DNA from: Limnothrix sp. FACHB-406
GTDB taxonomy: Bacteria > Cyanobacteriota > Cyanobacteriia > CACIAM-69d
Direction of reading: 5' to 3'
DNA length: 64,000 bases
Assembly (NCBI RefSeq): GCF_014698235.1
Contig: NZ_JACJSP010000004.1
Coordinates: 248,001 to 312,000 of the forward strand
The translations under genes were made by a program, and so were the position numbers. Numbering within the stretch: position 1 is the first letter of the stretch; each line of letters opens with the position of its first letter. Of the stretch, positions 37,531 through 39,826 are shown one piece after another. The notes beneath the pieces were generated by a model, which worked only from the letters and a program-made list of their open reading frames with translations, ran no database searches and was not told the DNA's origin.

Positions 37531-37588
37531 GTTCCCACGAAATGTGAATTGCTGACTACCATGAAACTAGTCATTGTGAATTCACATC

Positions 37589-38818
37589 ATGTCAAACCAA
37601 AACTGGGGAAAGGAAACGATCACCCGTGGTCTAGAACTTCTGCGCCAGGGATTGTTTCCTTTCATTCAAGAAGCCATGCAGGCAGGGTATGGTGATGATT
37701 GGGCCAAAAATTCTCTACAGTCTTTGCCTAAGCAGCGAACAGCCCAACCAATTCTAAAAAACTATTCTCCTATCAAAATCATCAGTGAAGATGTAGCTAA
37801 TTTACTAACAATTCTAGATAAAAATTACACCAAGGTCTTTAAAGACCGATTAAGCAAAAGCGACAAAGTTCTAGTGAATGAACTTCAGGAAATTCGTAAC
37901 CAGTGGGCCCATGAATCGGAATTTCCCACGGCAGATGTTTATCGATCGCTCGATAGCATTCGTCGGTTACTACAGGCCATCGGCTCGCCTCTATTGGAAG
38001 AGGTAGTAACCCAGCAAAATGAAGCATTGCTAGCCTTGAGTCATCAAAACCAAGCGCAGCAATGGGGACGAAACCCTAACACGCAAGCAGACCGACAGTT
38101 TCAAGAGCAGTGCGATCGCCTCATTTCTCAAATTCCGTTCCAGAATCGCAGCCTCCTGAACCAGGCTTTGACCCATAGGTCTTATAAGAATGAACACCCA
38201 AGCAGTGGTGATGACAATGAACGGCTGGAGTTTTTAGGCGATTCCGTTTTGGGGTTGGTGGTGGCTGAGTATATCCACAATAAACACCCATACCTCACTG
38301 AAGGGGAACTAACTCAGATCAAGTCTCGAATTGTAGAGAATACACAACTTGAGTTCTTTGCCAGTCAGCTTAATTTGAGTGATTGTCTGAGGCTGGGAAA
38401 TGGGCTTAAGCGTGATCAGAAGATCAGTCAAAAGAACTCGGTTCTTGCTAATGCCTTTGAAGCATTAATCGGAGCCTACTATCTTGATTCTGGTTTGGCA
38501 GCAGTTCAGGCATTCTTCTGGCCAAAGCTTGATCAAGTGATCGATAAACTGGGTTACGAAGGCGCAACAGCCCGACATCCTAAAAATGCTCTTCAGGAAT
38601 TTCTACAACAGCCAGGAAATTCAGCAATATTCGGTTCGGTTGATGAGTTAGTCTATTGTCGATCTCCACAAGGCCCACCCTGGACAGTGCTCGTCCAAAT
38701 TGCTCATTTCCCCTACGGTCAAGGCATTGGTGACACGATCAAAGCGGCAGAAACCCAAGCGGCGATCGCAACTTTAGCTATGCTGAAAGCGGAAGGGGTT
38801 GAGGTCGATCGCCCGTGA
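37589..38818 (+). CDS. Swt1-like HEPN domain fused to ribonuclease III
   Basis: A 409-residue fusion. Residues about 1-135 form an all-helical domain with R-x4-H in RNQWAHES (R103, H108), the mark of HEPN RNases; its length and start resemble Swt1-type HEPN domains. Residues about 172-320 are an RNase III domain with the signature ERLEFLGDSVLG (E211, E214, D218) and NAFEALIGAYYLD. In that second motif the usual metal-binding Asp (E. coli D114) is Asn288, while the Glu (E117) is kept as E291. Residues 330-405 resemble a double-stranded RNA-binding domain (NALQEFLQ to AAETQAAIATLAML). The DNA is more AT-rich than its neighbours. The stop overlaps the next gene's GTG. Confidence 0.85.
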   Translation: MSNQNWGKETITRGLELLRQGLFPFIQEAMQAGYGDDWAKNSLQSLPKQRTAQPILKNYSPIKIISEDVANLLTILDKNYTKVFKDRLSKSDKVLVNELQEIRNQWAHESEFPTADVYRSLDSIRRLLQAIGSPLLEEVVTQQNEALLALSHQNQAQQWGRNPNTQADRQFQEQCDRLISQIPFQNRSLLNQALTHRSYKNEHPSSGDDNERLEFLGDSVLGLVVAEYIHNKHPYLTEGELTQIKSRIVENTQLEFFASQLNLSDCLRLGNGLKRDQKISQKNSVLANAFEALIGAYYLDSGLAAVQAFFWPKLDQVIDKLGYEGATARHPKNALQEFLQQPGNSAIFGSVDELVYCRSPQGPPWTVLVQIAHFPYGQGIGDTIKAAETQAAIATLAMLKAEGVEVDRP

Positions 38819-39513
38819 TTGCCATCGTTCCAAATACTGAGCCGATCGCCCATTGGCAGCCCACAAGCTGGGAAACTTACCTGGCCACGATCGCCCTGGC
38901 CGAGCAAGAATCCAGTCGATCGCCCAAAGGCTATTACTACCAAGGCAGGATGTTATTGGAGATGGCAGCGATCGGGAATCCCCACGCTCGGGATCACTAC
39001 ATTCTGTTGGCAGCGATTGCCCTCTACAGCAGCCTGCTGGGTCTGGATTTGGATGGCCACGACAATTGCACCTATCGCCGATCGGGCGAATTGGAAGTGC
39101 AGCCCGATGCCTCGTTTCATGTGGGCGATCGGGCTAATTTAATTCCTTGGGATGAAACAATTGTCGATTTAGATCGCTATCCCGCTCCAGATTTGGCGAT
39201 CGAAGTGGCCTACAGCTCCTTGGGGGATGATTTGGGCGAAAAACGGCTGATTTATGAAGAAATCGGCGTTCAAGAATATTGGGTGGTGGACGTGCAAAAC
39301 GTGCGGCTGTTGGCCTTCAGCATGATCGGAAAGGGAAGTGAACGCATTACCCGATCGCGCGTGTTGCCCGGTTTGGATTTGACGCTGTTGCAAGAGGCTT
39401 TTCATCGCAGCCGCACCACCAATCACGGCCAAGTCACCCGCTGGTTACTGCAAGAATTTCAACAGGCGATCGCGGCAAATTCCACCAACCCCACCAGCCT
39501 CGATCCCCAGTAG
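38815..39513 (+). CDS. Uma2 family (DUF820) putative nuclease
   Basis: A 232-residue protein of the Uma2/DUF820 restriction-endonuclease-like fold, greatly expanded in cyanobacteria. The PD-(D/E)XK-type core is seen in APDLAIEVAYSS (about residues 121-132), followed by EKRLIYEEIGVQEYWVVD, with the catalytic Lys in EKR. A preceding QPDASF (about 99-104) matches the family pattern. The start GTG 38815 overlaps the stop TGA of the HEPN-RNase III gene in GTGA, so the two are translationally coupled. Most Uma2 proteins have no assigned function. A cobalamin riboswitch for the next gene follows about 20 bases after the stop. Confidence 0.88.
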   Translation: MIAIVPNTEPIAHWQPTSWETYLATIALAEQESSRSPKGYYYQGRMLLEMAAIGNPHARDHYILLAAIALYSSLLGLDLDGHDNCTYRRSGELEVQPDASFHVGDRANLIPWDETIVDLDRYPAPDLAIEVAYSSLGDDLGEKRLIYEEIGVQEYWVVDVQNVRLLAFSMIGKGSERITRSRVLPGLDLTLLQEAFHRSRTTNHGQVTRWLLQEFQQAIAANSTNPTSLDPQ

Positions 39514-39534: not shown

Positions 39535-39675
39535 AAGGTGCTAAGGTATTTCGGCAGCTTGGTGGGAAATGGCGGTGAAATTCCGCGACTGTGCCGCAGC
39601 CGTGATTGGTGGGGCTGTGCCAACAAATATGCTTAGCCAGCCCTGAGCAAACCATGAGTCGGAATGCCTCCAATC
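39535..39675 (+). promoter_or_regulatory. Cobalamin (B12) riboswitch
   Basis: The conserved aptamer core is readable: TGGGAAATGGCGGTGAAATT near 39570-39590, CGACTGTGCCGCAGCCGTGA (the B12-box region) at about 39589-39608, a 3' block with GCCAGCCCTGAGC, and GAGTCGGAATGCC at about 39655-39667. Blocks, order and spacing match the AdoCbl aptamer consensus. It lies 150-290 bases upstream of cbiX in the same direction, so B12 probably represses cobalt chelation by feedback. The expression platform between 39676 and 39826 is not resolved by eye. The boundaries are approximate. Confidence 0.9.
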
Positions 39676-39826
39676 TGCTGGGGCGATCGCGCTGCTTCCC
39701 TGTCCTGTGCGAGTGGCATTCGATCGGCTGTGAGCCATTAAAAACGCGGAAACTGATCGCCCCGTCAGTTCAAATCACCCATTCCCTTAGACCCTCGGCG
39801 ATGCACCGGGGCGCGAACTGAAATCC

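Follow-up and report, generated by a model that had tools for sequence, protein, structure and literature searches.

The stretch of DNA analysed here (the window; 64,000 nt, positions 248,001-312,000 of contig NZ_JACJSP010000004.1 in assembly GCF_014698235.1 of Limnothrix sp. FACHB-406) carries on its forward strand an ORF with an ATG start (37589-38818, +), which encodes a protein of 409 aa. Comparison with Pfam, NCBIfam and orthologous sequences revealed that this protein is a fusion of a HEPN domain, an RNase III catalytic domain and a dsRNA-binding domain (dsRBD). The N-terminal part (residues 13-132; 37625-37984, +) matched the HEPN_Swt1 profile PF18731 over its entire length (profile positions 1-115; E 2.9e-31, 108.6 bits vs a cut-off of 27.5) and contains the catalytic motif R103-N-Q-W-A-H108 (37895-37912, +), which conforms to the R-x4-6-H pattern of HEPN domains. 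The RNase III catalytic domain (residues ~182-320; 38132-38548, +) was recognized by Ribonucleas_3_3 (PF14622, E 3.8e-33), by Ribonuclease_3 (PF00636, E 2.1e-24) and, over residues 182-397, by the RNaseIII equivalog TIGR02191 (E 6.7e-55, 186 bits vs a cut-off of 166.25). Its signature NERLEFLGD (38216-38242, +) provides E211, E214 and D218, the equivalents of E. coli E38, E41 and D45, while a second acidic motif, N288-A-F-E291 (38450-38461, +), provides the equivalent of E. coli E117 (E291) and places Asn (N288) at the position of E. coli D114. The C-terminal dsRBD (residues 331-399; 38579-38785, +) gave a weaker match (PF00035, dsrm; E 8.7e-7, 29.9 bits vs a cut-off of 23). The protein therefore carries the equivalog score, the ERLEFLGD signature with the E38/E41/D45 and E117 equivalents, and the C-terminal dsRBD that characterize class 1 RNase III. 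Since both the HEPN and the RNase III halves score above curated cut-offs, the fusion is not a chance motif. The original prediction, which had proposed a Swt1-type HEPN domain with an R-x4-H motif (R103/H108) followed by a full RNase III and a dsRBD-like region in a single chain, was thus borne out by the curated profiles, including the HEPN match on which it hinged.

Structural comparisons added little to these assignments. A sequence search of PDB chains with the HEPN half gave no match at a meaningful E-value. The model of this half was all-helical (pLDDT 55.5), having been built from three near-identical sequences, and a fold comparison of this low-pLDDT model returned assorted helical folds (Z ≤7.4). 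The other structure model, based on an equally shallow alignment of three near-identical sequences, had a pLDDT of 39; both models were of too low quality to be interpreted.

It is worth mentioning that the HEPN-RNase III-dsRBD architecture, together with the idea of two nucleases in one chain, was published in 2013, when Anantharaman et al. (PMC3710099) described a Lyngbya protein (gi 119489560) as a 'two-headed RNase'. The Lyngbya protein and the fusion agree in domain order, in phylum and in the logic proposed for them, with dsRNA as the target of two RNase centres, and the fusion fits the description well, with HEPN, RNase III and dsRBD in one cyanobacterial chain and the HEPN motif intact. 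Judging from this architecture, the two are probably orthologous. The passage presents one example; relative to it, the new elements of the present study are the census, the replacement of a catalytic Asp by Asn in nearly all fusions, the coexistence with ordinary RNase III and the solo-gene context. In the open-access literature we found no later or experimental study of the HEPN-RNase III-dsRBD architecture.

The distribution of the fusion was analysed in 388 genomes drawn evenly from Cyanobacteriia, using a threshold (E 1e-40 or better) that could miss more diverged fusions. Thirteen of the 388 genomes gave a match. In eleven of the matching proteins the alignment spans both HEPN and RNase III within a single frame, a twelfth (G008) is split across two contig ends with overlapping translations, and the remaining one (G371) is an ordinary RNase III. 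The 12 carriers are scattered over six families. A looser search (E 1e-3) of 96 relatives yielded no additional fusion among the matches listed. All 12 carriers contain at least one further RNase III which, like the fusion itself, exceeds the curated cut-off; the exception is one partial match in G269, a genome in which a full further RNase III is also present (at C54). In the genome of the window, where the presence of a second canonical rnc had been raised as a point to check, we identified two other complete RNase III-dsRBD genes lacking HEPN (L002, L003). The fusion is therefore a rare accessory gene, additional to the normal RNase III. The alternative offered with the original prediction, that the protein is simply the cyanobacterial form of RNase III and might be universal and the only such enzyme, can be considered refuted: of the two groups of cyanobacterial RNase III that were sampled, its RNase III domain does cluster with the larger, but the fusion is found in so few of the genomes, and never as their sole RNase III.

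Phylogenetic trees placed the RNase III domains of the fusions next to, and not within, this larger of the two sampled groups, and separated their HEPN domains from those of ORFs of ~1100 residues. The latter ORFs, also detected with HEPN_Swt1 in two genomes of the genus (G001, G002), presumably correspond to a type described in the literature, which combines Swt1-like HEPN with an AAA+ ATPase (DUF499; Ava_2192 type) and is encoded in restriction-modification operons; their ATPase half is presumed from that description. The ATPase type shares the HEPN subfamily and the RN-x-WAH motif with the fusion, but differs in its partner, which is an ATPase instead of RNase III, and in its operon context. 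Both the RNase III and the HEPN trees cluster the fusions, which is compatible with a single origin without proving it; independent fusion events were considered as well, but one and two origins are not distinguished by these trees.

Orthologues of the window protein are 93% and 83% identical to it within the genus, and 34-38% identical in other families. Despite this divergence, R, N, W, A and H of the HEPN motif R-N-x-W-A-H are invariant across the 11 complete fusions, as are E211, E214, D218, E238 and E291 of RNase III. The RN-x-WAH motif is also present in most other cyanobacterial Swt1-HEPN proteins. Estimated dN/dS ratios were 0.06-0.32 for HEPN and 0.04-0.14 for the RNase III domain; the lowest values were obtained for the RNase III half in most pairs and the highest mostly for the dsRBD. 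Purifying selection thus acts on both the HEPN and the RNase III halves.

The fusion resembles canonical bacterial RNase III (rnc of E. coli and cyanobacterial paralogues such as L002) in the RNase III domain, the dsRBD and the signature motif; it differs in possessing HEPN and in lacking the Asp expected of class 1 enzymes at the position of E. coli Asp114, where Asn occurs in 11 of the 12 fusions and Ala in one (L053). The Glu corresponding to E. coli E100 is apparently missing from the Limnothrix-like copies. Asn also occupies the D114 position in RIIIDa of Drosha (MANCFEALIG; alignment to solved structures). Drosha is a eukaryotic microRNA processor without HEPN and with two RNase III domains per chain, of which RIIIDa is an active domain. 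Among the related cyanobacterial RNase III that stand alone and belong to the larger group (L002, L009-L032), most have Ser or Cys at this position, and a few have Asp. In view of this variability, Asn288 was not treated as excluding class 1 membership. Variation from D to N has been noted in some class III enzymes (PMC5357909), and the D114A variant of the E. coli enzyme shows only weak activity when magnesium is in excess (PMC8708148, Table 1).

On these grounds, the change from Asp to Asn may weaken the RNase III half of the fusion. It is no proof of a dead enzyme, because Drosha RIIIDa shares the Asn and the other acidic residues are kept; complete loss of RNase III activity through this substitution was not accepted for the same reasons. 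A weakened RNase III half is the basis of an explanation that we consider unlikely, in which the RNase III-dsRBD part would serve mainly as a sensor of dsRNA with little cutting of its own, and dsRNA binding would pair the HEPN domains, so that cellular RNA is cut and growth stops (abortive infection, by analogy with RNase L). The presence of Asn in place of the Asp in nearly all fusions, the full conservation of the HEPN dyad and the weak activity of E. coli D114A are in line with such a sensor-effector arrangement. However, E211, E214, D218 and E291 are all retained, the Drosha domain is active with Asn at this site, the occurrence of Ser or Cys in many cyanobacterial paralogues indicates that the site tolerates change, and it is the RNase III half that mostly shows the lowest dN/dS. 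A more specific version, a one-gene, RNase L-like bacterial immune enzyme in which an Asn-weakened RNase III-dsRBD dimer would sense phage dsRNA and switch on a paired HEPN toxin, is about as unlikely.

Analysis of base composition confirmed that the gene is more AT-rich than its surroundings: the fusion has 43-50% GC and GC3 of ~0.40-0.46, as against 59-62% and 0.67-0.76 for HK, rlmN, trpF and cbiX, and it was the AT-richer part in all 10 loci compared as well as in the window. Within the genus the fusion is placed after rlmN. The order HK-rlmN is common to two sister-genus genomes (G003, G004), in which rlmN is not followed by the fusion, and no HEPN_Swt1 match was found in the sister-genus genomes G003, G004 and G005. 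The low GC content and the absence from these three genomes suggest that the ancestor of the genus acquired the fusion laterally, although loss elsewhere is possible. In phage, plasmid and viral collections we found no fusion, all matches being at the level of RNase III or of HEPN; an origin from these sources was therefore rejected. PADLOC models gave no match to the full protein or to its N-terminal part.

The stop codon of the fusion is overlapped (GTGA) by a gene for a Uma2-family nuclease-like protein (38815-39513, +; PF05685, E 1.4e-23), with which, judging by position, it probably shares an operon. The overlap is seen in two species of the genus. In a third (G002/L034) a deletion has removed all of the Uma2 gene except its first codons, which now adjoin the riboswitch region of the gene that follows (L034, 9227-9330), and the fusion is intact. 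Uma2 is absent beside the fusions of other families. An obligate partnership was rejected, since Uma2 has been lost from one species with the fusion kept. No neighbour is conserved between unrelated carriers: the adjacent genes are mostly housekeeping ones, different in nearly every clade and shared by only two related carriers (G096 and G115). The idea of a conserved partner gene or operon was thus abandoned, and the differing neighbours make the fusion look like a solo accessory gene.

The chromosomal location among housekeeping genes would also suit an accessory housekeeping RNase III, acting in the processing of antisense RNA or rRNA, with HEPN serving only to bind RNA or to promote dimerisation; cyanobacteria commonly possess several RNase III genes, among which the roles are divided (PMC10989914). 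This explanation, possible but on balance improbable, has to account for a HEPN dyad that is invariant over proteins of such low identity, and for a patchy presence and solo context unlike those of a housekeeping gene.

The best-supported reading, to which we assign a probability of roughly 0.5, is that the gene was acquired laterally and encodes a self-contained RNA enzyme of two nucleases, with HEPN domains paired by dimerisation and two RNA-cutting centres. RNase III is a homodimeric enzyme, and the active site of HEPN nucleases is built from two HEPN domains. The RNase III-dsRBD half would bind dsRNA and form the obligate RNase III homodimer, which would bring two N-terminal HEPN domains together into a composite R-x4-H active site; with both domains on one chain, HEPN pairing would be automatic once RNase III dimerises on dsRNA. 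RNase III would then cut the duplex and HEPN nearby RNA. The presence of both RNA-cutting activities in one chain is a prediction from the conserved residues. The enzyme would add to ordinary RNase III without replacing it, and would probably be used against foreign or aberrant dsRNA, such as phage or antisense transcripts. This two-nuclease reading is favoured by the strong profiles for both halves, the invariant residues and low dN/dS, by the rare spread, coexistence with RNase III, varied neighbours, AT-richness and the HK-rlmN order in sister-genus genomes lacking the fusion, and by the functional proposal made for the same architecture in PMC3710099. Against it count the change of a metal-ligand Asp to Asn, the weakness of E. 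coli D114A, the apparent loss of the E100 Glu and the mostly highest dN/dS in the dsRBD. A defensive role in particular can be put forward only as a proposal, given the lack of a PADLOC match, the mostly housekeeping neighbours and the absence of fusions from the phage, plasmid and viral collections.

The fusion would offer a compact test of dsRNA as a bacterial danger signal, and of the ability of an RNase III dimer to bring about HEPN pairing. Since the gene is rare and accessory, and ordinary RNase III is present as well, it could be removed with the normal enzyme left unaffected.

Several minor features were observed around the fusion genes. Between rlmN and the start codon of the fusion lies a short, nested leader hairpin (37542-37587, +), conserved in sequence in three species of the genus. 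The fold was predicted in all three, with an energy only about one standard deviation better than that of shuffled sequences (z -0.95 to -1.2). The hairpin may serve as an operator or as an RNase III site for autoregulation; the latter was set aside in view of this small difference. No sigma-70 or terminator pattern was found near the fusion gene. Further downstream, an AdoCbl-II-like cobalamin riboswitch (39555-39677, +; 35.4 bits, narrowly missing the gathering score of 36.5) precedes the gene for a cbiX-type chelatase (39827) and is retained in three genomes of the genus. Beside the fusion of G312, four consecutive ORFs (L047, 8808-12113) resemble a single 711-aa protein encoded near the fusion of G250, with sequences that look TPR-like.
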